Below, in pieces: positions 3,608 to 19,596 of a stretch of DNA of 38,424 nucleotides; positions within the stretch are counted from its first letter, which is position 1, and the number at the start of each line of letters is the position of its first letter. This DNA comes from Victivallis vadensis. GTDB taxonomy: Bacteria > Verrucomicrobiota > Kiritimatiellia > UBA8416 > CAMCYG01. The notes under the pieces are model-generated. The model saw only the letters and a list, made by a program, of their open reading frames with translations. It was not told the origin of the DNA and searched no databases. Position numbers and translations under genes: made by a program. The stretch lies in assembly GCA_945883775.1 (NCBI GenBank), contig CAMCYG010000009.1:1-38424 (forward strand), read 5' to 3'.

Positions 3608-5134
3608 TCACTCAGTTCTTTTTTCTATCTGTTTTACAAGATTATCGAATATCAGTACATGCAGAGGCATGCAGGCATGCCAGTAAGCTCTGCCTATAAT
3701 GCCACTTGTATAAAAGTAAGCTTTAACGGTCAGCCTGTTCATGCCCTGCTCTGGGTCAATGCTGAACTGTAGCCATGCTTTGCCAGGCAGTTTCATTTCT
3801 GCACGCAGAAGAAGCAGACGATTCTCCTGCATATCTTCAACGCGCCAGAAATCAATTACATCATTGATCCTCAAGGTCGAACGACTCCGCCTGCCGCGCA
3901 AAGAGCCTACGCCCATAATCAGCCGGTCTAACCACCCCCTGAGCCGCCACAGCCAGTTACTATGAAACCAGCCCCCACTGCCGCCTACAGAACATACGGA
4001 CTTGAACAGAACATTGCTGTCTCTGGCTGTCAGCATGGAATATGTATATGAATATTCTGGAGACCCGGGCTGTTCCTTAAGCTTCATCGAAAGCTCATGC
4101 GCAGGAGGGTAAGCATCTGACCACCGGGTTGATACCTGATCCTGCTCCTCACGTGACAATGCGGCAACAACTGCTTCCCTGTATCTCATCAGCCGTAAAG
4201 GCACTATCTGCCTTATACTGTCATTCTTGCAGATGACTTCATATGTGATACTTTCCAGCAGACACCTAACGATATGATGCGGGACAGGCGTTAATAGGCT
4301 GGCAAGATACGAAAACAGTGTGATATTCGAGACCGGACTTGGCAGATAGAGCGACTGCTTACCCAAAATGCGGCTGAATTCCTGCATCATATCCTTATAC
4401 GACAGTACGTCAGGCCCGCCTATGTCGTAGCAGCAGCCGACGGTTTCATCTTTCTCCAGCACTCCTACAAGATATTTGATGACATCTCGCACTCCTATCG
4501 GCTGGCAACGTGTGAATGAGAAAGCCGGCAGCAAAATAATCGGCAGCAATCTAACAAGATTATAAACAATCTCATACGAAGCACTTCCGGACCCGATAAT
4601 CACTGCCGCCCGCAAAACAGTTACCGGCACAGCGCCACGCTGAAGCTCTTGCGCCACAGCCATTCTGCTCCTCAGATGCGGTGACAATTTGTAATTGGTA
4701 TCACCCAGCCCGCCGAGGTAGATGATGCGACGCACTTTACACTCTTCTGCGGCAATCCTGAAATTCTCCGCCGACTTGATATCGGCATGCTCAAATTCCA
4801 GCGGGCCCAGCAGAAGCGAATGGATAAGATAATATACGGTATCAACGCCTTCCATGGCCTTGCGTACACCGGCTATATCAAGCGCATCTGCAACGACTAC
4901 CTCCACGCCTGGCCAGCGCTGGGCATACTCACTCGAATATGCCCGCACCATTACCCTTACCCGGTATTTCCTGTAAATAAGCTCGGGCACCAGCCTTCCG
5001 CCTATATAGCCGCTAGCGCCGGTAACAAGTACTATTCCCATATCCGGCCTTGGCTCGGTCGGAAGATCCTGACAGTAAAGATAATTATTGATAACTATTT
5101 CTCTCATATCCCACGGCGACAGTAAAGTCAGCAT
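3608..5134 (-). CDS. NAD-dependent epimerase/SDR family protein with C-terminal DUF2867-like region
   Basis: Rossmann motif VLVTGASGYIGGRLVPELI; C-terminal FWRVEDMQENRLLLLRAEMKLPGKAWLQFSID and FYTSGIIGRAYWHACMPLHVLIF. Start placed at 5134 to avoid overlap with the upstream CDS. Confidence 0.85.
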   Translation of the reverse strand: MLTLLSPWDMREIVINNYLYCQDLPTEPRPDMGIVLVTGASGYIGGRLVPELIYRKYRVRVMVRAYSSEYAQRWPGVEVVVADALDIAGVRKAMEGVDTVYYLIHSLLLGPLEFEHADIKSAENFRIAAEECKVRRIIYLGGLGDTNYKLSPHLRSRMAVAQELQRGAVPVTVLRAAVIIGSGSASYEIVYNLVRLLPIILLPAFSFTRCQPIGVRDVIKYLVGVLEKDETVGCCYDIGGPDVLSYKDMMQEFSRILGKQSLYLPSPVSNITLFSYLASLLTPVPHHIVRCLLESITYEVICKNDSIRQIVPLRLMRYREAVVAALSREEQDQVSTRWSDAYPPAHELSMKLKEQPGSPEYSYTYSMLTARDSNVLFKSVCSVGGSGGWFHSNWLWRLRGWLDRLIMGVGSLRGRRSRSTLRINDVIDFWRVEDMQENRLLLLRAEMKLPGKAWLQFSIDPEQGMNRLTVKAYFYTSGIIGRAYWHACMPLHVLIFDNLVKQIEKRTE

Positions 5135-5150
5135 AAGCTGCTCTTTTCTG

Positions 5151-5861
5151 CTACCGTTTACGGACGACAGCGAACAGTGACTGCCCAACTGGCGGTGCAA
5201 TTATACGTTCAAGCGCAGAGATGAAAGGAGCCAATCTATCAACAATACGCGCATTTACCGGGTCAATTTTAGCGTCCTTCTTAATACGCCCGCTGTACCA
5301 CCAGCCAAATACCCCTATAAAATTGACATAATGGCATTTCTCTACGAAGCCACCTGCGCTCAATATTGTATTCTTAAGACCTGATTTGGAATAGCGCCGG
5401 TAATGACCAAACTCCTTGTCGAGCTGGCCATAAGCCCACTGACATGCAGGTACGAACAACAACAGCCGGCCCTCTGGGGACAGGGCAGACAGCATATTTT
5501 GAACTGCAGCAATATCTTTATCTATATGCTCCAGCACATTCAGACATAAAACATTATCAAAACAGGCCTCTGATATACCCAGCGAAAACATATCCTCTAT
5601 TGAACCGTTTACCACCCTGACATTCTTGTGCATTTCGGCCGTATGCTGAAGAGAACTGGCGAATTCACTGCTGGACTCCAGACAAACAATCTCCTTGCGC
5701 CTGAGCATAAACTGCAGAATATTGCCAGTCCCTGCTCCGACTTCCAAAATCTTAGCCCCCAGATATGGATGCAGCAGAGAATAGATCCAGTGATTATAAT
5801 TGTATGTATCCTTGAGCAGATCAAGGCTGTGAGTCAAAGCAGTTATTTCGTTAGAACTCAT
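5151..5861 (-). CDS. Class I SAM-dependent methyltransferase
   Basis: Motif I ILEVGAGTGNIL; VLCLNVLEHIDKD; RRYSKSGL. Confidence 0.88.
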   Translation of the reverse strand: MSSNEITALTHSLDLLKDTYNYNHWIYSLLHPYLGAKILEVGAGTGNILQFMLRRKEIVCLESSSEFASSLQHTAEMHKNVRVVNGSIEDMFSLGISEACFDNVLCLNVLEHIDKDIAAVQNMLSALSPEGRLLLFVPACQWAYGQLDKEFGHYRRYSKSGLKNTILSAGGFVEKCHYVNFIGVFGWWYSGRIKKDAKIDPVNARIVDRLAPFISALERIIAPPVGQSLFAVVRKR

Positions 5862-5897
5862 AAGCTATACTGATAAAGCAATAATTTGACACTGCCT

Positions 5898-7121
5898 TTA
5901 TTTCAGCATCCTGTCCAGCGTCATGCCGATAGCATCAATGAATTCCTCGGTCGTAACCTGCCTATCGGACGGTGATGGGTCGACAACACGAATCAAGTCA
6001 CCTGTCATAATGCCGTTTTCAATAGTCGAAACAGATGCCTTCATAAGCTTATCAGCAAATGCGACTACGTCAGGCGTACCGTCCATCTCGCCCCTCTTCC
6101 TGATCGCCCCACCCCAGGCAAAGATCAGCGCCATCGGGTTCGAAGACGTCTTCTCGCCTTTTAAATATTTATAGTAATGTCGCTGAACTGTCCCATGCGC
6201 AGCTTCATATTCAAAATGGCCCTCCGGGGAGACCAACACCGATGTCATCAGAGCCAGACTGCCGCAGGCTGATGCCAACATGTCCGACATGACATCGCCA
6301 TCATAATTCTTACAGGCCCACAACATCCCTCCGTCAGTCTTCATTATCCTGGCAACCACATCATCTATAAGCGTGTAGAAATATTCTATACCGGCCTTCT
6401 TGAACTTTTCCCGCCAAAACCCATCGTACTCGGCCTGGAAGATATCCTTAAATCTGTTGTCATATGTCTTGGAAATCGTGTCCTTGGTCGAGAACCAGAG
6501 AGCAACCTTCTGGTCATACGCATATTCGAAACAGGCCTTGGCAAAGCTCTTTATTGAAGCATCAGTATTATGAATACCCTGTATAACGCCAGGAGCATTG
6601 AATTCATGTATTGTCTTCCTGATTGGTGCACTACCGTCGGCCGGAGTAAACACCAACTCCGCCTTACCCGCGCCAGGTACTGCTATTTCCTGATTCTTAT
6701 AGACGTCGCCATAGGCGTGCCTTCCTATATGAATCGGCTTCTTCCAGGCTTTTACGCCAGGTTGCAGATTCTTAACAAGAATCGGACTTCTAAATACAGT
6801 ACCATCAAGAATCGACCTGATGGTCGCATTAGGACTGGGCCACTCATGCTTCAGCTTGTACTCTATTATCCGCTCCTTGTTAGCGGTAATCGTTGCGCAC
6901 TTCACACCAACACCATACTTCTTGATGGCGTAGGCTGATTCATACGTTACCTTATCCTCTGTTTTATCGCGATTGGCCATCCCAAGATCATAATATTCCA
7001 GATTGATATCCAGATACGGCAGTATCAGCCGCTTTTTAAGCATCTCCCACATAACGCGGGTCATTTCATCGCCATCCAGCTCCACCAATGTCGTTTTGAC
7101 TTTTATCTTGCTCATATTCAC
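5898..7121 (-). CDS. icd: NADP-dependent isocitrate dehydrogenase (eukaryote-like type II subfamily)
   Basis: [75 protein letters not shown]. Confidence 0.95.
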
Positions 7122-7202
7122 CTGTTACCTAAATTATGTTTACAACACTCATCACTTTTCATTCACAACACCGGTACCCTGGCCGATGTCCTTTTCGCCA
7201 AC

Positions 7203-7226
7203 ACCCGGCAAAACACCGGGACTACA
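7203..7226 (-). repeat. Second copy of the REP-like half-element
   Basis: Reverse complement TGTAGTCCCGGTGTTTTGCCGGGT matches 18927-18950 TGTAGTCCCGGTGTCTCACCGGGT at 21/24 positions; in the icd/acn intergenic gap. Confidence 0.55.
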
Positions 7227-7292
7227 CTTAATGACACTCTTGCGCCGCGTTCTTGTAGTTTCAGAACTCAGCAGAGTCAGACAAGCAACTTC

Positions 7293-9242
7293 TCAACCTT
7301 GGCCGCCTATCAAATTCAATGCACCGCCTGCCATCAGCATCTCGACCTGTCTCTTCGAGAAGCTGTGTATCAGGAAAATATTCTTACCTTTGGTAATATT
7401 GCGAAGCTTGATATCAGCCCCCAGTTTCAGACAGTCATGTATCCCCTCGATCTTCAACTCGTCACCAAGTTCAATTCCGTCATAATCAGCAGGAGTCTTG
7501 AACACCAGCGGCATTATTCCAAAATTGATAAGATTTGCGCTGTGTATGCGCTCGAAAGATTTTGCGACAACTGCTTTAACTCCGACATACATCGGGCAGA
7601 TAGCTGCATGTTCCCTTGACGAACCCTGCCCATAGCTCGCTCCTGCTACGATAATATTGCTTTTTCCGGTTGCCTTTACCGCCAATGCCCTCTTTGCAAA
7701 CCCTGAATCGACAACTTCAAAAAGGTATTCACTGTATTTGCCTATGTTCGATCTGTATTTCATTCTGGCACCGGCCGGAATGATATGATCCGTAGTTATC
7801 TCGTCACCCAGTTTTATAGCGACCTTGGCTTCAATAACATCGGCCAACGGCAAGCCTGCCGGCGGTTCCCCAATATTGGGGCCTCGTATGACCTCAACGT
7901 TAGCACCGCTCTTTGATGGCGGAATAATCATGTTGTCATTGACTCTGAATTTTCCCGGTAGCTTTATTGCCGGATATTTGATCTTGCTCTTCTCAAGTTC
8001 ACGAGGATCTGTGAACTTACCAGTGAGAGCCGAGGCCGCCGCGGTCTCAGGTCCGACTATATAGACATTTGCATCTTTTGTTCCTGACCGACCAAGGAAA
8101 TTCCGATTCCCAGTTCTCAACGATACAGCACCACTGCCCGGCGACTGGCTATTCCCTATGCAGAATCCGCAAGCGTTCTCTGCAAGACGCACCCCCGACT
8201 TGATCATCTCGGCAAGCATGCCATTATCGGAGAGCATCTCCACTACCTGCTTTGAGCCCGGCCCCACAACGACACTGACATCAGGGTGTATAGTCCTGCC
8301 CTTGAGAATCGATGCAAAAATCATCAAATCCCTGAAAGATGAATTTGTGCAGCTCCCCATGCAGACCTGATCCACCTTTATCCCGCCCATATCTTTGACC
8401 CTGGCAATGTTTCCTGGACTATGCGGTTTTGCCGTCAACGGCTCAATCTTTGCCAGATCGATATCGAACTTACGGGCATATACCGCACCTTTATCAGCTG
8501 ACAGTGACTTCCATTGCTCACCCCTGCCCTGAGCCTTCAGAAAAACACGTGTCACCTCATCACTAGGAAAGACCGAGGTCGTGAAGCCGCATTCAGCACC
8601 CATATTCGTGATAGTGGCGCGCTCTGGCACGGTTAGCGTCTTAACACCCGGCCCTCCATATTCAGCGATTACACCGACATTGCCCTTGGTCCCGAAATGC
8701 TCCAACACTTTAAGTATGACATCCTTTGCCCCAACCCACTTACCGAGCTTGCCGGTCAGATTTATCAGGACTATGTCCGGATAACTCATATAGAAAGGCG
8801 CTCCGCTCATCGCCAGCGCTACATCGAGTCCGCCGGCACCGATGGCAAGCATGCCGATTCCACCTCCGGTAGGAGTGTGGCTATCACTTCCAAGAAGCGT
8901 CTTACCTGGACAGCCGAAGCGCTCGAGATGAACCTGATGGCATATCCCGTTTCCCGGCCTGGAAAAAGTGATTCCATACTTGTCGGCCACTGTCTGCAGA
9001 TATTTATGATCATCAGCATTCTCATATCCTATCTGAATGGTATTGTGGTCGACATAACTGACAGAGATCTCCGTCTTAACCTTTGGTGTCCTGGTTGCTT
9101 CAAACTGAAGATACGCCATCGTACCGGTCGCATCCTGCGTCAGAGTCTGATCGATTCTGACAGCGATCTCCTGTCCTCTCTCAGCGACTCCGCTGACAAT
9201 ATGTTCGTCCAGTATTTTTGCTGTAAGCGTCCTAATAGACAT
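7293..9242 (-). CDS. acn: Aconitate hydratase
   Basis: 649 aa; LGSDSHTPTGGGIGMLAIGAGGLDVALAM, CMGSCTNSS, NACGFCIGNS; swivel-domain GASYGQGSSREHAA. RBS TAGGAGG upstream. Confidence 0.95.
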   Translation of the reverse strand: MSIRTLTAKILDEHIVSGVAERGQEIAVRIDQTLTQDATGTMAYLQFEATRTPKVKTEISVSYVDHNTIQIGYENADDHKYLQTVADKYGITFSRPGNGICHQVHLERFGCPGKTLLGSDSHTPTGGGIGMLAIGAGGLDVALAMSGAPFYMSYPDIVLINLTGKLGKWVGAKDVILKVLEHFGTKGNVGVIAEYGGPGVKTLTVPERATITNMGAECGFTTSVFPSDEVTRVFLKAQGRGEQWKSLSADKGAVYARKFDIDLAKIEPLTAKPHSPGNIARVKDMGGIKVDQVCMGSCTNSSFRDLMIFASILKGRTIHPDVSVVVGPGSKQVVEMLSDNGMLAEMIKSGVRLAENACGFCIGNSQSPGSGAVSLRTGNRNFLGRSGTKDANVYIVGPETAAASALTGKFTDPRELEKSKIKYPAIKLPGKFRVNDNMIIPPSKSGANVEVIRGPNIGEPPAGLPLADVIEAKVAIKLGDEITTDHIIPAGARMKYRSNIGKYSEYLFEVVDSGFAKRALAVKATGKSNIIVAGASYGQGSSREHAAICPMYVGVKAVVAKSFERIHSANLINFGIMPLVFKTPADYDGIELGDELKIEGIHDCLKLGADIKLRNITKGKNIFLIHSFSKRQVEMLMAGGALNLIGGQG

Positions 9243-9836: not shown

Positions 9837-10673
9837 CTATGCCTCAGCTCTGATAAACTCTATAACATCTTTCCACCATGACAGACCCGGAGAAGATGGC
9901 CAGGTATTGTGGCCTGCGTTTTCAAACTTGTGAAACATTTTTCGGGTGTTTAAGCCATCATACAGCTTCAGAGTGAAACGGTTAGGGATAATCTCGTCAT
10001 TCCCCGCCATGATCACAGCAACAGGACCTTTGTAATTCCGGATATTACACGCATTGTTAAATTTATCACGTATGAGCCATTTGGCGGGAAGGAACCAGTA
10101 TATACTCTGAGCAAGGTCAGGCAGGTTGTCCCACGGCGTGAGCAGGACAACACCTGAGATATCACTCTCGATACCCTTGATTGCTGAACATACAACTCCA
10201 GCGCCAAGCGATTCACCCCAAAGATAGAGCGGCCCTCCGAACATCGCTTTCGCCCTCTTGACCGCATCCCGCGCGCTTTCCGCAAACGGCCCCTCGCCAA
10301 GTTTACCGCCCCGAGCACCATAAACTGGATATTCAAAGAGAATGATCCGGTAGCCCAGCGGGGTCAAAGCATCAACATAGAAAGCCCTGTCCAGCGCGCA
10401 TCCGGCATTTCCCTGAAAAACTATTACAGTGCCATTTGAGGCCTGAACCCTATCGGCACCGGCTACAAGGCCCAGATAAGACCCGTCAACTGAAGGCCAT
10501 AATTCCAAACCGCAGATGCCGGCATTTTTCTTCAACTCTGCCAGGGTCAGTCTCGTCGGAACAAACAGCAGTGACCGCTGGATGAAATACATCACCAAGA
10601 CCAGGATCGAAAACAGAATCAGCAGCTTAAGAACAAGCATAGAGAACCTCTTTGGGAGTATGGAGAAGATCAC
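9837..10673 (-). CDS. Membrane-anchored alpha/beta hydrolase
   Basis: N-terminal TM; GNAGC...; LWGESLGAGVV nucleophile elbow; AGNDEIIP acid; AGHNTWP histidine. Overlaps the upstream stop by 4 nt. Confidence 0.87.
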   Translation of the reverse strand: MIFSILPKRFSMLVLKLLILFSILVLVMYFIQRSLLFVPTRLTLAELKKNAGICGLELWPSVDGSYLGLVAGADRVQASNGTVIVFQGNAGCALDRAFYVDALTPLGYRIILFEYPVYGARGGKLGEGPFAESARDAVKRAKAMFGGPLYLWGESLGAGVVCSAIKGIESDISGVVLLTPWDNLPDLAQSIYWFLPAKWLIRDKFNNACNIRNYKGPVAVIMAGNDEIIPNRFTLKLYDGLNTRKMFHKFENAGHNTWPSSPGLSWWKDVIEFIRAEA

Positions 10674-12424
10674 AGCTGTTTCTTATATGGGATATCAACG
10701 CCATATTCTTTAGAAGTTTCTGTGATTGCGTCGAGAACGATCTTATCACGCGTCCGTGCGTGCTTTCCAATTAGATGATATATTTTCTGCTTGGCCCATT
10801 CGTTACGGATTGAATCATTACCCTTTGCCACATTGTCAAGGTCAACATCGAACACCATATCACACTGCGTCTCTTTTCCCTTGCCGACGGCCTGGAATAC
10901 GATTTTATTCTGATCACGCGGAAATCTTCCATATAAGACCATCGGTCGATCCAGGTACAGATTGCTCATAAGGCCGGGATATAACTCTCCCTTTTCATCA
11001 CCTGGCAGATTCATACTGATATCAGATAACACAGGGCGCCTGAAACTTCCGAAGAAGGACTCCATGCTCTCAGGAATATCCCAACGTCCGGTTTTGACGG
11101 CAAAACTGGCACCACGGTTGCAATAACCCACCATGTCGAGCAGATAATCATTGGAAATCTTGATCGTTCCGAAAGTGAACACAGATATACCGCCGTTGTT
11201 CTTTGCACTGAACTGGCCTATTATCTCTGAGCTGTTAACCAGTCCGGCAGTCGGCACCCCGTCAGAGACAAGCAGTATCGCCATAGGTCTGCCAACCTCC
11301 CGCTTCTCGCCGAGGAACGAAGTCAAAGAACCATAGATATCCGTATTTGCGCCCGATCTGGTATCAGCCACAAAACTCGCCGCTGCCATTACATTTTCTC
11401 TGGTATTCTCGACCCAGCTCGGAAAACATCGCACTTGCGACTCGCGGAACCTGATGATATTGAAACGGTCCTTCGGGCCAAGAAGCTTGAGACACCTGTT
11501 TAATCCATCCCTGCAGAAATACATCCTTTGCTCCGCCATACTGTTTGAGCTGTCCTGAACTATAAGCACGTCCTTGGGAATGACAGGCAGCTCTTCTTCG
11601 CCAATCCTTGAAACCTCAATCTTGACATACAGGTGAGCTCTGTCCATGAGAAACGGCTCGTATTTGCTTACTTGAATCTTCAGGAGTTTTTCTATGGCAA
11701 GTTTATCTGTTATCTGTTCCTTGAGAAGAGCATCCTTTCCCGGAAGTTCATCAGGCTTGTTCTTGTCTTTCGGCATATACGGTCCGCCGAAGCCTTTACC
11801 TCCAGGTACACCGCCTGCACCATTAGCCAACTGCGGTATGGAAGCCTTACCGCCGACTCTTTTCCCAATCTCATCACGATCCACTGGATAAGTGATATCG
11901 GGTGCTGACGATACTCTTTCTATGACAGGTATGACCCTTCGGTCCAGCGGATAATCCGGACCAACGGCCTTAGTCCTGTCTATCACAAGTATCTCCTGCC
12001 GCGCTTCCCATGCCGTCGGCTTTGGAGCGTCGGGAGCCTCGGTCAATGCGGCAGCCTCTCCCCTGAAATCAGTCACATCCACCGGTTTCGGCTGGGTAAC
12101 GGCTCTATCCACAGGCACACTCAAATCATTAACGGCCTTCACCATGTCGATTTCTTTCGACTCAGACTTGCCAGGCTGCCTGTCATCTCCGCTGGGTGCG
12201 GTTCCCGAGCCCACAGGATCGCGCTGGACGGATACGACAGTAATCGGCTTATCTTTATGCGTCTTTATCTGTTTATTGACCAAGGCAGCAATGGCGAAAG
12301 GGAGCGACATCACAAAGAAGACAAGCAGCACGTGCAAGATCATGGATACAAGAAAGGCTGCGAAAGCGGCAATGACATGCTGTCGCGCAAATCTGATATT
12401 CTTCTCTTCGTATTGCTCGTTCAC
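10670..12424 (-). CDS. vWA-domain protein with TonB/TolA-like N-terminal TM anchor and Pro-rich spacer
   Basis: Intact MIDAS-like vWA (VQDSSNSM, SGANTDIYGSL, LLVSDGVPT). N-terminal TM AAFLVSMILHVLLVFFVM includes SxxxH. Start overlaps the upstream TPR gene by 4 nt. Confidence 0.87.
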   Translation of the reverse strand: MNEQYEEKNIRFARQHVIAAFAAFLVSMILHVLLVFFVMSLPFAIAALVNKQIKTHKDKPITVVSVQRDPVGSGTAPSGDDRQPGKSESKEIDMVKAVNDLSVPVDRAVTQPKPVDVTDFRGEAAALTEAPDAPKPTAWEARQEILVIDRTKAVGPDYPLDRRVIPVIERVSSAPDITYPVDRDEIGKRVGGKASIPQLANGAGGVPGGKGFGGPYMPKDKNKPDELPGKDALLKEQITDKLAIEKLLKIQVSKYEPFLMDRAHLYVKIEVSRIGEEELPVIPKDVLIVQDSSNSMAEQRMYFCRDGLNRCLKLLGPKDRFNIIRFRESQVRCFPSWVENTRENVMAAASFVADTRSGANTDIYGSLTSFLGEKREVGRPMAILLVSDGVPTAGLVNSSEIIGQFSAKNNGGISVFTFGTIKISNDYLLDMVGYCNRGASFAVKTGRWDIPESMESFFGSFRRPVLSDISMNLPGDEKGELYPGLMSNLYLDRPMVLYGRFPRDQNKIVFQAVGKGKETQCDMVFDVDLDNVAKGNDSIRNEWAKQKIYHLIGKHARTRDKIVLDAITETSKEYGVDIPYKKQL

Positions 12425-14796
12425 TTTGTGACCGCCTCCGCAATCGTATTGGTCGACGACCCACCACTCTGTGGCTTATTCAGTCTCTTCGCCCATTCAC
12501 TATCAGGATATCGCTCCACCAGCTCCTGCCGCGCCTTCGACCCTGCTTCGCTATTGCCAGCAAGAGAATATAATTCACCAGCCTCGAAAAGTGCTTCCGG
12601 AACCATATTCTTGTCATCATAAAGAATAGCGATACTCATATAGTATTTTGCTGATGATTCGTACTCCTTGCGTATCTTATAGGCACGGGCAAGACCAAGA
12701 TATGCGTTTGCCCTGACGCCCAGAAGCGCCTCGTCTGAGGCTGTCTCCGCAGCTATAGTGTAATATCTTACCGCCTCATCCAAATTTTTACGGCCATACA
12801 TCATGTCTCCCAGCTTCAATGCAGATTCCGGCAGGAATCTGGTATTTGCTTTTGCTGCAAGCGCTTTTATAAAACATGTTTCCGCTTCATCCAGTCTGCC
12901 CTGCAAAAGGAAGCCCCTGCCGCCAAGCGCCCAGCCGGTCTGCTGCCATTTCGGATCAGGAAACATCTCCTTGATAGCGGCAGCAGCATCAATAGAGTCA
13001 GCTGTAAGGTTATTCTGGAAAGCATATTCAGACAGCCATTGCAGCAGTTCAGCCGGCATTTTCATCCTGCAAGGCGTTTTGAGCAGAGGCAGCATAAGGT
13101 CGGCGGCCTCCTTGTATTTTGCGGTCTTATAAAGAGCCACCGCCAGCTGGAAAGAAGCTTCACGCTCAAGCTCCTGCCTGGGATTAGCGGCCAGACTCTT
13201 CTTGAGCAGTTCCGCCGACGCAGCAGCATCACCTTTATCCTTCTTCAGTACACCCTGCCAGAAATAGGAATCCGCCATGAACCTTGATGCCGGATATCTC
13301 CTGCCCAGTTCCTGCAGACTGGCAAGGGCCTCCACATCGCGTTTCACCCTGACCTCTGCCATGGCTTTATGATACAGGGCATCCTCAGCCAGGGGAATGG
13401 TCTGATAAGTCTTGGCGACTTCGCCCCAGCACTTGATCGCGTCCTGTGTCCTGTTCGCCTTGTCATACGCACAGGCTGCGGCAAAAAGCGCCTGACCCGC
13501 CAGACTGTTCGTAGGATACTTTACAGCTATATCACTGAAATACCGCGCCGCCTCTAGCATCTCGCCCTTTAGCGAAAGAAGATGGGCTATACGATAAGAG
13601 CTATCTGCCGCGGCATCTGTGCCTGGAAAACTATCAGCCAGAAGCTTATAATACTGTATAGCCTCGTCTCTTTTTCCCAGCAGTGAGTTCGATTCCGCCA
13701 AAAGCCAGTACACTTCCTTCTTAAGGGATGTGCCGGGGCGGATCCTGCCAACCTGATGAATCACACTAAGAAAGTCTCCCGTCTTGTAATACACCAATGC
13801 CGTCTCGTACTGAGCATCATCAACGTATTTCGAATCAGAATAATCCTTGATCAGTTTCTGGTACGTGTCTATCGATTCAGCATGCTTCATAAGCTGGCGC
13901 TGACTATTCGCCTTAAGGTATAGCCAATCGGCCACTGCATCAGCTTGGACTGACTTCAGCGCTTCACCAGCCAGTGCCAGAGCATCAGCAGGCAGACCTG
14001 AATTCTGCAAGGCCCAGGCGGCCTGCAGTCTGGCCTCAGAAGAACGCTTGTCCGTTGGATATCTATTCAACAGCAACTTGTAATGATCCCCGCTCTTGTC
14101 GTATTGTTTCTGCCTGAAATACATGTCGGCAAGCTGGAAAAGAGCCTCTGCACCGGTCCGCTCCACTACCGGCTTTTCTGCAGCCAATTTGAACATCTCT
14201 ACTGCTTGCGGTATCTTCTCTGGCTGGCCGGCATAAACCTCCCCTAGTTTCAGAAGGCTGTATCCTGTGAATTTTGATGCAGGATATTTACCTCTTGCAA
14301 TCTCCAGCACCTTCACCGCGTCATTAGTTGCCCCGGATTTGAGCTGTGCCTCTGCCAGATAATACATTGATGGCGCCGCCACCTCCTCATCAGGATTCAG
14401 CGCAAGCACCTGGGAGAACAGACTGACCGCCTCTTTATTCAAACCTGTTTCCAGGAACACACTTGCCCTCTTGAATCCAGCCTTCAGCCTGTACGGACTG
14501 TTCGTGTAGATATTAAAAACTATCGTATATTCCTGCGCGGCCTGTTTGTAATCCTTCTTGGCGAGGAAGCAGTCTGCCAGCCGGAAGTGTGCCACATCGG
14601 CATATTTGCTATCAGAAAAATCCCTTATGAACACCCCGTATTCCTGAATCGACAGCTCATACATCTCTCTGGAGAAAAGACCATCAGCGAACTGAAGCCG
14701 CTCATTCTCGCTCACCGGCCCGAATGTAGAGGCATTGGCAGCGCAGATTGACACCAACAACAGGCTCATCATCGCGAACTTAGTTCTCATTTTCAT
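12421..14796 (-). CDS. Secreted/periplasmic tetratricopeptide-repeat protein (about 791 aa)
   Basis: Many TPR/Sel1-like units (YELSIQEYGVFIRDFSDSKYADVAHFRLADCFLAKKDYKQAAQEYTIVFNIY ...). Signal peptide if started at 14796 (MKMRTKFAMMSLLLVSICAANA), with a GAAGGG RBS. Confidence 0.88.
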   Translation of the reverse strand: MKMRTKFAMMSLLLVSICAANASTFGPVSENERLQFADGLFSREMYELSIQEYGVFIRDFSDSKYADVAHFRLADCFLAKKDYKQAAQEYTIVFNIYTNSPYRLKAGFKRASVFLETGLNKEAVSLFSQVLALNPDEEVAAPSMYYLAEAQLKSGATNDAVKVLEIARGKYPASKFTGYSLLKLGEVYAGQPEKIPQAVEMFKLAAEKPVVERTGAEALFQLADMYFRQKQYDKSGDHYKLLLNRYPTDKRSSEARLQAAWALQNSGLPADALALAGEALKSVQADAVADWLYLKANSQRQLMKHAESIDTYQKLIKDYSDSKYVDDAQYETALVYYKTGDFLSVIHQVGRIRPGTSLKKEVYWLLAESNSLLGKRDEAIQYYKLLADSFPGTDAAADSSYRIAHLLSLKGEMLEAARYFSDIAVKYPTNSLAGQALFAAACAYDKANRTQDAIKCWGEVAKTYQTIPLAEDALYHKAMAEVRVKRDVEALASLQELGRRYPASRFMADSYFWQGVLKKDKGDAAASAELLKKSLAANPRQELEREASFQLAVALYKTAKYKEAADLMLPLLKTPCRMKMPAELLQWLSEYAFQNNLTADSIDAAAAIKEMFPDPKWQQTGWALGGRGFLLQGRLDEAETCFIKALAAKANTRFLPESALKLGDMMYGRKNLDEAVRYYTIAAETASDEALLGVRANAYLGLARAYKIRKEYESSAKYYMSIAILYDDKNMVPEALFEAGELYSLAGNSEAGSKARQELVERYPDSEWAKRLNKPQSGGSSTNTIAEAVTK

Positions 14797-14828
14797 ACAC
14801 CCTTCAATCTCAGTTATAAACACTGACT

Positions 14829-14930
14829 CGGCCGGAGGACTCACCCTCCCGTAATTACGGAAAGGCAGGGCAACCCAGTCCTACCTGCGCAACCCTGAGC
14901 TGTTAAAGAGGCGAAGCGTTCGGCCTCGGT
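14829..14930 (-). other. Candidate structured 5' leader RNA between exbD and the TPR gene
   Basis: In a non-coding gap, on the minus strand: GAGGCCGAACGCTTCGCCTC hairpin, GCAGG..CCTGC hairpin, perfect palindrome CCGTAATTACGG, GGAGG..CCTCC hairpin. No known family could be assigned by eye. Confidence 0.4.
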
Positions 14931-15028
14931 GATCTACTACTTCTGATCAGTAAAACAAGAATTGATGGATAGCGGTACAAATTGCACACCACAATCCCTC
15001 CTCTGTATTCTGAATTCTCGCTTCTTGT

Positions 15029-15472
15029 CTATTTCACCGGCTCTTTATTATCCGGCTTGGTCTCAGGCACGCCTGTTGCAAATGAAATATTCCATAGGTC
15101 AGCAGAACGGCACTGATCTATAACACCAATAATATGCTTGTATGGCACTTCCTTGTCGGCACGGATCAGGACTGACTGGCCGGGAAACATCTTGACCACC
15201 CGCCCTAGCAGGTCACCTAGCCCCGCTTCCCCCAACACCTGCCTGTTGACAATTACAGCTCCATCGCGCATGACATTTATAATTATCTCACCAGGCAGTC
15301 GGCCGGGCAGCTCGCCAGTCTTTGCAGTCGGGAGTTTAACGTCAATCTCGGTCTCCCATTGCGAAAAAACCTGAGTCGTAATAAAGAAGCACAGCATCAG
15401 AAACACGATGTCGATCATCGGTGTCATCTGAAAGCTGGGCAGCTCCTGCGTATATTTCGACTTGAAGTTCAT
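15029..15472 (-). CDS. exbD: Biopolymer transport protein ExbD/TolR
   Basis: FQMTPMIDIVFLMLCFFITTQ with conserved Asp in the TM; C-terminal VLIRADKEVPYKHIIGVIDQCRSADLWNISFAT. Confidence 0.94.
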   Translation of the reverse strand: MNFKSKYTQELPSFQMTPMIDIVFLMLCFFITTQVFSQWETEIDVKLPTAKTGELPGRLPGEIIINVMRDGAVIVNRQVLGEAGLGDLLGRVVKMFPGQSVLIRADKEVPYKHIIGVIDQCRSADLWNISFATGVPETKPDNKEPVK

Positions 15473-16209
15473 TATGTCCTCTTGCTTAACAGACCGGCAA
15501 GCACATCACTCGACTTCTTCTCGAGGTCCGACACCAGCGTTGCGGCCCTTCTTCTGAAATAGGCGTAAAACGCCATTGCAGGGATACCGATGACCAAGCC
15601 GGCCACAGTCGTTATCAACGCCTGCGCTACGCCTTGAGCCAGCAGTATCGGCTTCGCCTTTGCGATATCAAGCGCAACCGCGCTGAATGCGGTAAGCATG
15701 CCGAATACGGTGCCGAGCAAGCCGACCATCGGTGAAATTACAGCTATATCGAGCAGGTATTGGGTCTGCCCTTGTATCGCCTCGCTCTGTCTGCTTCCCT
15801 CGCTTTCTATTGCATCCTTGATCATCGCCGGATCTGCACTGGGAACTTTCTTGATGAAGTCCAAAGCTGTCAGCGTAACCGCAGATATCGGAGAAGGCCG
15901 TTCAACGCAGGCACGTTTTGCAGTCTCCAATGAACCAGCGCTAATCGAATCCAGGATCTGATGGCACTGAAGCTCAGGGATTATCTGCGACTGGCGAAGG
16001 ACCGCAAACAGATAAATTATCATCGCGCCTGCACCGATGGAAAGCGCCCCGAGCACATACATCAGCCAGCCGCCAGCTTGCATAACCTGCCGCCAGGTCA
16101 TCCGCTGCACATTTGAGTCCGTCAGGCCCTCTGCCATCGCCTGATTCGCAAGGCAGACAAGACCGAACAATACCGCAACCGCCAGTAATCTTCTTTTTGC
16201 ACACTTCAT
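15472..16209 (-). CDS. exbB: MotA/TolQ/ExbB proton channel family protein with N-terminal signal-like extension
   Basis: LLDIAVISPMVGLLGTVFGMLTAFSAVA...GVAQALITTVAGLVIGIPAMAFYAYF. Confidence 0.94.
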   Translation of the reverse strand: MKCAKRRLLAVAVLFGLVCLANQAMAEGLTDSNVQRMTWRQVMQAGGWLMYVLGALSIGAGAMIIYLFAVLRQSQIIPELQCHQILDSISAGSLETAKRACVERPSPISAVTLTALDFIKKVPSADPAMIKDAIESEGSRQSEAIQGQTQYLLDIAVISPMVGLLGTVFGMLTAFSAVALDIAKAKPILLAQGVAQALITTVAGLVIGIPAMAFYAYFRRRAATLVSDLEKKSSDVLAGLLSKRT

Positions 16210-16223
16210 AATTATCCTCCTGA

Positions 16224-17591
16224 TTATTTACCGCTATCAATCAGTCGCCGTATTGCCAACGAATAAGAAGCGGCTGATCTGCGAAATATTTTCCGAGCTG
16301 AGACGATCTCTTTCCTGTACATTGCAAAGTCCAGACCGGCCGGAGCACCGTCATGGTTTTTAAGACTTATCGCCTTGTACGGATTGACAGCAGAAAGATT
16401 GTTCAGCTCTGCCTTGACCTTATCGTAAGCATCCCTAAACGGCATCCCGCCAGCCACCAGCTCCAGCGCCCTATCAGTAGCAAATACTGCCGGAGAGAAC
16501 GCACTTAGGAGCTTAAACTTATCAACCGTGACACCCGAGACCATCAGGTTCATGACCCTCAGACTGCTTTCGACGGTTTTGAACGAAAACATGAAAGATC
16601 CTTTAGCCTCCTGCAGATCCCTGTTATAACCGCCGGCAAGGCTGTTTATTATACCTGTGATTGCTGTAAAGTTTCCAACAACAGATGACGTCTTTGCCCT
16701 GACAAGCTCTAGCACGTCGGGATTGCTCTTCTGCGGCATTATGCTGCTGCCGGTACAATACTGAGCCGGGAGTTTGAAATACCCGAACTCTGGCATCGAA
16801 TAAAGGATCAAGTCTTCTGCCAACCTGGAAAGCGTCAGCATTATCTGCAGAAGAGCCGAGACTATCACGGATTCGCACTTGCCCCTGGTATTGCTCGCAT
16901 ACAGGACATTATGTATGGACGAGCTGAAGCCAAGCAACTTCGCCGTCATCGCTCGATTAATCTTAAGAGGCACTCCATAGCCAGCCGCTGAACCAAGCGG
17001 GGACCTGTTATTTAGGTCATACGCTGTCTTGAGCACTTTGAGATCATCAAGCAGGCTTTCAAGATAAGCCGACGCCCACAATCCCACTGAACTTGGCATT
17101 GCCGGCTGAAGATGCGTCCTGCCAACCATCGGCACCTTTTTATTCTTTATCGCCATTTTAAGCAGTGACTCTGCCAGCAGAAGGGTATCTGTTGCGACTG
17201 TTGAAAGATGTTCCCTTGCATACAGCCGAAGATCCAGAGCCACCTGATCATTCCGGCTCCGGGCCGTGTGGACCTTCTTTCCCAGCTGACCGAGCCGGTC
17301 TGTAAGCATCCGTTCGACAGCCATATGCACATCCTGGTCATCCTGCAATATCTCGAACTTGCCTGCCCGTATGTCTGCAATAATCAATTTCAGGGCTTTT
17401 AAGACCTTTTTCTTATCAGCCTTACTAATCAATGGCTTCTTTGTCCTCAAGGAAGATAGCATGGTGACATGCGCCGCGGTTCCGACACAATCGTGCTCGG
17501 CAAGCGCGATATCCAGGACAGGATCATCGCCAACCGTAAAATCCAGAACCGCTTTGTCAATTTTACCAACAATGGTCTTGCGAGTTTTCAT
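16224..17591 (-). CDS. argH: Argininosuccinate lyase
   Basis: HTARSRNDQVALDLRLYAREHL, GRTHLQPAMPSSVGLWASAYLESL, GSSIMPQKSNPDVLELVRAKTSSVVGN. Confidence 0.96.
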   Translation of the reverse strand: MKTRKTIVGKIDKAVLDFTVGDDPVLDIALAEHDCVGTAAHVTMLSSLRTKKPLISKADKKKVLKALKLIIADIRAGKFEILQDDQDVHMAVERMLTDRLGQLGKKVHTARSRNDQVALDLRLYAREHLSTVATDTLLLAESLLKMAIKNKKVPMVGRTHLQPAMPSSVGLWASAYLESLLDDLKVLKTAYDLNNRSPLGSAAGYGVPLKINRAMTAKLLGFSSSIHNVLYASNTRGKCESVIVSALLQIMLTLSRLAEDLILYSMPEFGYFKLPAQYCTGSSIMPQKSNPDVLELVRAKTSSVVGNFTAITGIINSLAGGYNRDLQEAKGSFMFSFKTVESSLRVMNLMVSGVTVDKFKLLSAFSPAVFATDRALELVAGGMPFRDAYDKVKAELNNLSAVNPYKAISLKNHDGAPAGLDFAMYRKEIVSARKIFRRSAASYSLAIRRLIDSGK

Positions 17592-17686: not shown

Positions 17687-18898
17687 ATGCAGCAATATTT
17701 TCAGGATATCATCAGACTCAGCCTAGGAAGCACTCCCGAAGACATGCTCAAGGCATCTCTCGATGCCTGCATCAAGTTGACCGGTGCATCCGGCGGGTCT
17801 ATCCTGGGCGAAGAAGGACCAAGCCTGCAGTTTCTCTTTTCTGACAATCCCTCCCTGATAGGAATCCGCGTTCCATTCCAGAGTATCGCAGGGACTACGG
17901 TGACAAAGAATCTTGTCGTATTTACTTATGCACCAAAGGATAAGCGCCATTTCGCTGGCGTAGACAGTAAGACAAAGAAAGAAACAAAATATCTGCTCAG
18001 CATCCCCATCCCAACAGTGCACAGCACCTCCGCTGGCAACCGCCAGGCAAAAAGCACCGGGGCTCTACAGCTTTTGTTTGAGGAGAATGTGACAACCCAG
18101 GACACTTCCGCCCTGCCGAGAGAGCTGACTATCGACGAATTCACTCTGTCGCTCGAGAAGGCCGGGCATTTTGCCGAAGTCTTGAGCCTGTTGCCCATCA
18201 TCGCCTTCGGGCTGGAAGTGGTAAGGCTCAGACAAACTTCGTATCAAGTGATTCACGAACTCAAGAACAAGCTCATATCAGGCATCTCGTGGATAGACTG
18301 CCTCAAGGAAGATATTGCCGGCATAGACGCAACCATACTCGAGAACGCAACGGTAAAAGATGACTTTGAACTGGCCTCGGCTTCGGTGCGCGAAGGCGCT
18401 GAGCTTTCCAAATCATATCTGCAATTCACAAAGATATATTCCCCTGTTTTTGCCATGTGCGACATTCGGATTGTACTGCGCGAGGTCGCGGCATCGGCAA
18501 AGGCGCTGGCTTCCGACATGGGCTGTGCAGACCTTGAAGTCAAACTCAACTGTCCCCCGGAAATGCACGAGAGGGAACTTGATCGAGGCCAGCTGAAAAT
18601 GGCGTTCTTTAATCTTTGCAAGAACGGCGCTGAGGCGCTGATAACCTTTAAGACGCCCAACCCGGTACTGACTTTAGACTGCTCGGAAAACAGCGGTGCG
18701 CTGGAAATCAGGATCAGCGATAACGGACCCGGCATGCCGCAAGAGATCGCCGACAACCTTTTCATGGCATTCAAGACAAAGAAGGAGGGCGGAACAGGCC
18801 TGGGCCTTACTATAACAAAGAAAATAATCGATGTTCACGGCGGATCGATCCGATGCGAAACAGGAGCGACCGGCACAACGTTTGTGATAGTGATATAA
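17687..18898 (+). CDS. Sensor histidine kinase (GAF-like N-terminus)
   Basis: H-box YQVIHELKNKL; N-box NLCKNGAEAL; DNGPGMPQ; GGTGLGLTITKKI. Confidence 0.88.
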   Translation: MQQYFQDIIRLSLGSTPEDMLKASLDACIKLTGASGGSILGEEGPSLQFLFSDNPSLIGIRVPFQSIAGTTVTKNLVVFTYAPKDKRHFAGVDSKTKKETKYLLSIPIPTVHSTSAGNRQAKSTGALQLLFEENVTTQDTSALPRELTIDEFTLSLEKAGHFAEVLSLLPIIAFGLEVVRLRQTSYQVIHELKNKLISGISWIDCLKEDIAGIDATILENATVKDDFELASASVREGAELSKSYLQFTKIYSPVFAMCDIRIVLREVAASAKALASDMGCADLEVKLNCPPEMHERELDRGQLKMAFFNLCKNGAEALITFKTPNPVLTLDCSENSGALEIRISDNGPGMPQEIADNLFMAFKTKKEGGTGLGLTITKKIIDVHGGSIRCETGATGTTFVIVI

Positions 18899-18925
18899 GA
18901 CAGAATCCAGGAGCCAGAATTCAGA

Positions 18926-18990
18926 ATGTAGTCCCGGTGTCTCACCGGGTATAGTCATTTAAGATGCCGGTGATGACACCGGCACTACAT
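18926..18990. repeat. REP/BIME-like imperfect inverted repeat
   Basis: ATGTAGTCCCGGTGTCTCACCGG ... CCGGTGATGACACCGGCACTACAT; arms near-complementary, between the kinase and receiver genes. Confidence 0.7.
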
Positions 18991-19044
18991 CTCCGAATGT
19001 TTGCGCACTGGGTTATTCAAAGACACACAAAAGGGGGTAGACAC

Positions 19045-19596
19045 ATGAGTAATGAAAGACTGGATATCGGAGCAGTGGCTGGAAGCGATAGTTACAGCGG
19101 CCTTATCAAGGAAATCGAAAGAAATTTTAACCCTAACAATAACACCGTACTCCTCGTCGACGATGAGCGAGGCATAAGAAAACGTGTCGCCAGGGATGTT
19201 CAGGCTTTTGATAAGAATATTGTCATCTATGAGGCATCAAACGGACAGGAAGCGCTTCAGAAACTGGCGCAGATCCGCACTACGCATTCCCGAGATCCGC
19301 TGTTTATCGTGCTGGATCTGAATATGCCCATTATGGACGGCTGGCAGGTGATTAAGGAGTTGAAAAAGGATTATGAATCGCAGGGCAAAGAAATTGGCAT
19401 TCCTATAATTGTATTGTCATCCACCAGCGGCGAAAAGGGCATATTCCTGACCAAGAGCAGCGTCCACGACGGAAAGAGCGGATATAACCCTCTCGTTTCC
19501 ATTGCAAAGGAAGCCTGCATCGATAAGACAAAATATGACACCAGCGAAAAAGGTCTTGTCGTCTGGCTGAAACATTTCATCAAAGCCGGACATTAG
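19045..19596 (+). CDS. Response-regulator receiver protein (single REC domain, atypical C-terminal half)
   Basis: VLLVDDERGIRKRV; IVLDLNMPIMDGWQVIKEL; IIVLSSTS. Start at ATG 19045 preceded by AAGGGGG. Confidence 0.86.
   Translation: MSNERLDIGAVAGSDSYSGLIKEIERNFNPNNNTVLLVDDERGIRKRVARDVQAFDKNIVIYEASNGQEALQKLAQIRTTHSRDPLFIVLDLNMPIMDGWQVIKELKKDYESQGKEIGIPIIVLSSTSGEKGIFLTKSSVHDGKSGYNPLVSIAKEACIDKTKYDTSEKGLVVWLKHFIKAGH

Follow-up and report, generated by a model that had tools for sequence, protein, structure and literature searches.

A predicted proton motive force-driven envelope machine of Kiritimatiellae with a vWA protein in the place of TonB or TolA

The locus and its set of four genes

The window analyzed here is a stretch of 38,424 nucleotides from Victivallis vadensis (GenBank assembly GCA_945883775.1, contig CAMCYG010000009.1, positions 1 to 38,424 of the forward strand), and our subject is a minus-strand gene cluster within it that encodes an ExbB/ExbD motor, a tetratricopeptide repeat (TPR) protein, and a membrane-anchored protein with a vWA head. 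The genes exbB, exbD, TPR, and vWA are a set of four belonging together, and we consider it likely that they encode a trans-envelope machine driven by the proton motive force (PMF), with the vWA rod as its transducer. The four genes are as follows.

15472-16209, minus strand: exbB (TolQ/ExbB/MotA family), 245 amino acids with an N-terminal signal-peptide-like segment (Pfam MotA_ExbB, 1.2e-26)
15029-15472, minus strand: exbD (TolR/ExbD family), 147 amino acids (Pfam ExbD, 7.3e-25)
12421-14844, minus strand: gene for the TPR protein, with many Pfam TPR repeats of YbgF and BamD type
10670-12424, minus strand: gene for the putative vWA force transducer, 584 amino acids (Pfam VWA_3, 3.9e-12)

An earlier note on this DNA had described five minus-strand genes that look co-transcribed, namely these four and an alpha/beta hydrolase gene downstream. 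The open reading frame (ORF) coordinates confirm the five genes and their junctions: exbB and exbD meet at 15472 with a 1-nt overlap (TAATG), and the TPR/vWA and vWA/hydrolase junctions each overlap by 4 nt (GTGA). exbD and the TPR gene are 184 nt apart, or 232 nt if the latter starts at ATG 14796, so that across this junction co-transcription is only inferred. In linked relatives the two genes mostly overlap or have little space between them, and a comparison of the window's gap with Rfam for structured RNA returned no match.

The arrangement was followed through 57 genomes, counting the window's own, from its order and class. In 43 of these the vWA protein has strong relatives over all or nearly all of its length, and the named records matched by the vWA alignment are metagenome-assembled genomes of Kiritimatiellae, Lentisphaerae, and other Verrucomicrobiota. 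Conservation of the cluster, on which the earlier note had made its reading depend, was borne out by a gene-neighborhood search: about 15 genomes, belonging to different families, share the order exbB-exbD-TPR-vWA with 35-55% identity between the proteins, which is therefore more than chance. These recurring loci often have argH at their head and show 4-nt overlaps.

Other lineages carry the vWA gene by itself, either after coaE-rho (L062, L066) or between a DUF1015-type gene and thrS (L042), housekeeping settings that suggest constitutive expression. Its partners nevertheless persist. Where window-type ExbB was searched for, 20 of 21 genomes gave a match of at least 190 bits, at 46-55% identity to the window ExbB (the window genome itself excepted), and other ExbB copies there reached at most 128 bits; the one exception was G015, which is 88% complete. 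Among genomes with an unlinked vWA gene, 18 of 19 fetched exbB loci are exbB-exbD of the window's clade, with the TPR gene adjoining in 16 of these 18. Across all 57 genomes, 41 hold both the vWA transducer and type-A ExbB, 10 hold neither, 2 the vWA protein only, and 4 the ExbB only (Fisher p = 1.3e-6, a descriptive value that ignores kinship), while the genomes at least 90% complete divide into 28, 7, 0, and 1, respectively. Beyond the class, full-length vWA proteins are again accompanied in their genomes by window-clade ExbB, and TPR follows in 21 of 25 loci.

Two loci depart from the pattern in their details. In genome G041 (two contigs; L064, L189) the vWA and TPR genes are each split into two ORFs, probably through assembly frameshifts. 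At L304 4011-9664 (G071), exbB, exbD, and a TPR gene (810 amino acids) are followed by a penicillin-binding-protein-like transglycosylase (597 amino acids) in the place of vWA.

Two further genes flank the set.

9837-10673, minus strand: alpha/beta hydrolase gene (Pfam Abhydrolase)
16224-17591, minus strand: argH (argininosuccinate lyase), 14 nt upstream of exbB

The hydrolase, which the earlier note had counted as a fifth member of the system, is a lineage-specific passenger: a homologue adjoins the vWA gene in 0 of 38 related neighborhoods, and we ruled it out as a machine component. argH is kept upstream of exbB in 17 other genomes and probably heads the transcript; it is a conserved neighbor outside the machine. 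Genes for a histidine kinase and a response regulator (window 17687-19596, plus strand) lie immediately upstream of the cluster and diverge from argH.

Motor, transducer, and TPR solenoid

The window ExbB and ExbD align to PDB chains of ExbB/TolQ and ExbD/TolR, and they retain the channel residues of 5:2 PMF motors. Within the ExbB clade, Thr167 is kept in 57 of 58 sequences and Thr201 in all 58, as is Ser57 in the first transmembrane (TM) helix, TM1; the proton-carrying Asp21 in the TM helix of ExbD is present in 51 of 51. In Escherichia coli, TonB Ser16/His20 contact ExbB Ser34/Trp38, and TolA Ser18/His22 contact TolQ Ser28/Trp32 (PMC12215075). We equated window ExbB Ser57 with E. coli ExbB Ser34 and TolQ Ser28 by sequence pattern.

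The features of the vWA protein, including its metal ion-dependent adhesion site (MIDAS), are these.

12305-12397, minus strand: single TM helix, residues 10-40, with a TonB/TolA-type Ser-xxx-His pair
12344-12346 and 12332-12334, minus strand: codons of Ser27 and His31, respectively, the putative docking pair in the TM helix
12215-12247, minus strand: possible D-box/motor-box-like strand following the TM helix, residues 60-70 (PITVVSVQRDP; consensus PxxLxxV)
10673-11698, minus strand: head, comprising the vWA domain and a C-terminal domain, residues 243-584, with a complete MIDAS
11540-11554, minus strand: MIDAS D291-x-S293-x-S295, with T361 and D388

In the AlphaFold2 model, helix 10-40 is followed by disorder from residue 54 to about 240, a Pro-containing linker of about 185 residues, and by a confident head from 243 to 584. 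Ser27 and His31 are among only 19 invariant columns of an alignment of 30 vWA sequences (A1). When distinct vWA homologues of at least 500 amino acids were examined, 96 of the 98 that were readable at the N-terminus had SxxxH, the background rate being 2 among 310 proteins that these loci also encode and that have a strong hydrophobic segment at the N-terminus. The pair is also retained where the vWA gene is unlinked from exbBD. The earlier note's proposal that the vWA protein would take the TonB/TolA transducer place is well supported by these features: a helix with SxxxH, a spacer that is disordered and contains Pro, and a folded head, in a protein that co-occurs with ExbBD-TPR even when its gene lies elsewhere. 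The strand at residues 60-70 might, more weakly, correspond to a D-box or motor box; the TonB D-box used for this comparison is described in PMC10907165 and PMC12215075.

The head is modeled with a predicted local distance difference test score (pLDDT) above 90 over most of its length, and its MIDAS residues are conserved among vWA homologues. Its best Foldseek match was 6fpy, inter-alpha-inhibitor heavy chain 1 (E 9e-23), and a profile search matched it to 9c4f, ITIH4 (1.8e-36). ITIH1, ITIH4, and bacterial secreted vWA proteins (TIGR03788-like) share with the window head the vWA domain, the MIDAS, and the domain that follows; in the window protein the head is joined to a linker and a helix for docking in the membrane.

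The TPR protein likely starts at ATG 14796, which gives about 790 amino acids with a clean Sec signal peptide and agrees with the large periplasmic TPR protein proposed before. It is modeled as an all-helical continuous solenoid over residues 30-770 (AlphaFold2 mean pLDDT 91). Comparison of the fold with the PDB returned generic TPR solenoids only, and a lipobox match was found in just 2 of the TPR homologues scanned. TPR orthologs accompany exbBD in relatives.

Comparison with published vWA transducers, Ton, and Tol-Pal

Transducers of a related kind have been predicted. Starting from Tichowtungia, vWA force transducers tethered by a TM helix with an SHLS motif were proposed by Williams-Jones et al. 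(2025, Molecular Biology and Evolution [MBE], PMC12204202, Fig. 4a-b), and the typical arrangement is TPR, tolQ, two tolR, and vWA, with Verrucomicrobia among the holders. Logic and part list match: the published type and the window system both have a TolQ/TolR-like motor, a TPR gene, a Ser-His helix, a disordered linker, and a vWA fold. The cluster was first thought to be undescribed, and this holds for its arrangement relative to the text of that paper but not for the idea of a TM-anchored vWA transducer. It is nonetheless unlikely that the window system is a plain member of the Tichowtungia-type family with no real difference. The published order, which we also fetched from G125, G135, and G087 (type B), places TPR first and has two tolR genes, whereas the window has one exbD and the order exbB-exbD-TPR-vWA. 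The published vWA proteins are about 370-480 amino acids long, compared with 584 in the window, and it is the window-type gene that is often unlinked in relatives. Type-A ExbB forms a single clade, outside which the published-type ExbBs lie (Shimodaira-Hasegawa-like approximate likelihood ratio test [SH-aLRT] support 96, quick tree). The heads differ as well, in that a window-type head profile scored 44-186 bits on the phylum's separate secreted vWA proteins but at most 13 bits on published-type heads, and the DxSxS motif of the MIDAS was absent from the three type-B heads inspected (L301, L302, and L295_7680). No type-A match came from G125, whose genome is complete and has type B. The window system is thus a variant of the predicted vWA-transducer kind, set apart by the published text and the fetched loci, and the simplest reading would be that TonB-like helices gained vWA heads at least twice. 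The window's own genome also holds the published arrangement without a vWA transducer: at L243 7532-9920 (G000:C23), TPR-TPR-exbB-exbD-exbD is followed by a GspG-like pseudopilin.

A second possibility is that ExbBD drives TolA or TonB-dependent receptors (TBDRs), with the vWA and TPR proteins as unrelated neighbors. In its favor, the window ExbB and ExbD score best as TolQ and TolR, and the TPR protein matches the CpoB/YbgF repeat model. In the window's genome, moreover, L357 (G000:C39) 4622-8489 carries tolA-like, tolB, pal, tatA, and tatC genes in a row with no tolQ or tolR alongside. Against it, relatives hold a separate tolQ-tolR-tolA-tolB locus with its own motor, and an unlinked vWA gene still co-occurs with type-A ExbB and encodes the docking pair. 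The docking pair is SxxxH as in TolA, but unlike Tol-Pal, the window cluster has a solenoid of about 790 amino acids rather than a CpoB of about 250, and it lacks TolB and Pal, whose locus lies elsewhere, on C39, with TolA. The Ton system shares the ExbBD motor, a docking pair of the Ser16/His20 type, and a Pro-containing linker, but here a vWA head replaces the TonB C-terminal domain. Neither TonB_C (PF03544) nor a TBDR plug was found in the window's genome, which is 89% complete, so that absence is no proof; G039, which is 95% complete and has the system, also gave no TBDR plug. A canonical tonB elsewhere that pairs with these exbBD genes, which the earlier note had raised, thus did not appear, and the TolA of relatives has its own TolQR. 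We regard the neighbor explanation as highly unlikely.

Two narrower proposals concerning Tol were rejected. An ExbB on C18 of the window's genome resembles TolQ no more than it does other ExbBs, leaving its reading as a displaced TolQ unsupported. A role of the system as a TolB replacement where TolB is missing was ruled out, as TolB-like proteins, all scoring below the curated cut-off, occur in 56 of 57 genomes with or without the system.

An adhesion or gliding machine, in which the motor would drive a surface adhesin-like vWA protein as in Myxococcus gliding, is likewise very improbable. MIDAS-bearing vWA heads do act as adhesins elsewhere, and gliding is suggested for vWA transducers in PMC12204202. 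The head here, however, hangs on the inner membrane by the linker of about 185 residues and is therefore periplasmic; no gliding-cluster genes were noted around the vWA gene, and its unlinked copies sit in housekeeping settings (coaE-rho-vWA, DUF1015-vWA-thrS). Finally, Bat/MoxR cassettes, to which the cluster had been likened, also combine vWA and TPR proteins, but this one has an ExbBD motor and a head closer to ITIH than to BatB (neither a MoxR ATPase gene nor a DUF58 partner was noted in the cluster, though no search aimed at MoxR was made), and the head's closest solved relatives, the inter-alpha-inhibitor heavy chains (6fpy, 9c4f), led us to reject that reading.

Proposed mechanism and its weighing

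For the PMF-driven machine with a vWA transducer, we propose the following sequence of steps. Ser27 and His31 of the vWA protein would engage Ser57 in TM1 of ExbB, in the way that TonB and TolA dock on their motors, a step inferred from sequence conservation, and the strand after the vWA helix may be a binding site for the ExbD dimer. With protons flowing through ExbB5-ExbD2, the vWA linker would then be pulled or reoriented, and the metal-ion-dependent site of the head would grip a ligand at either the outer membrane or the wall. The TPR solenoid may serve as a scaffold or as an adaptor presenting the head's ligand. The most likely role, and the least certain step, would be to maintain the envelope or tether the outer membrane rather than to take up nutrients. 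We put forward TPR binding, the ligand of the head, and the physiological role as hypotheses.

In Kiritimatiellae and related classes, the system seems to be a third machine of the envelope, in addition to Ton and Tol. We see even chances for the fuller proposition of a third PMF machine that is independent of Ton and Tol and widespread in these classes, in which the head of a TonB-like rod is a metal-dependent, integrin-like vWA grip that evolved separately from the published transducers and works with a dedicated periplasmic TPR solenoid.

Several points weigh against the proposed machine. Among PDB chains, a profile of the docking region (A3) matched neither TonB nor TolA, and the docking match therefore rests on two residues, topology, and context. 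The Leu and second Ser of the SHLS motif are weakly kept in vWA homologues, and the Trp that contacts the His (E. coli ExbB Trp38, TolQ Trp32) is mostly Leu or Val here and Gly in the window ExbB. The strand after the helix resembles the TonB D-box in place, with an inexact hydrophobic pattern, and ExbB Pro210 is retained in just 39 of 58 sequences. Support for the envelope-maintenance role is indirect. In the window's genome, where tolA-tolB-pal has no local tolQR, the window ExbBD might also serve TolA.

Understanding of PMF pulling systems of such architecture is limited to Ton and Tol, and vWA transducers have been predicted with no phenotype attached. The present analysis supplies conserved residues (vWA Ser27/His31, ExbB Ser57, and the MIDAS), defines a four-part set kept together in evolution even where its genes scatter, and offers evidence for more than one capture of a vWA head by TonB-like helices. 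The residues and the defined set together open the transducer idea to direct tests by point mutation and pull-down.

Nature also provides variants of the docking helix. The sole exceptions seen to SxxxH, one TxxxH and one TxxxY, belong to family f59 (L245, L253) and constitute a natural test of the importance of the docking pair. At L325 5385-6971 (minus strand; G250), a protein with an SxxxH TM helix resembling the N-terminus of the vWA transducer ends in an OmpA-like C-terminal domain and may be the same rod bearing another head; its homologues in G071, G076, G111, and G251 keep the His and have Ala in place of Ser.

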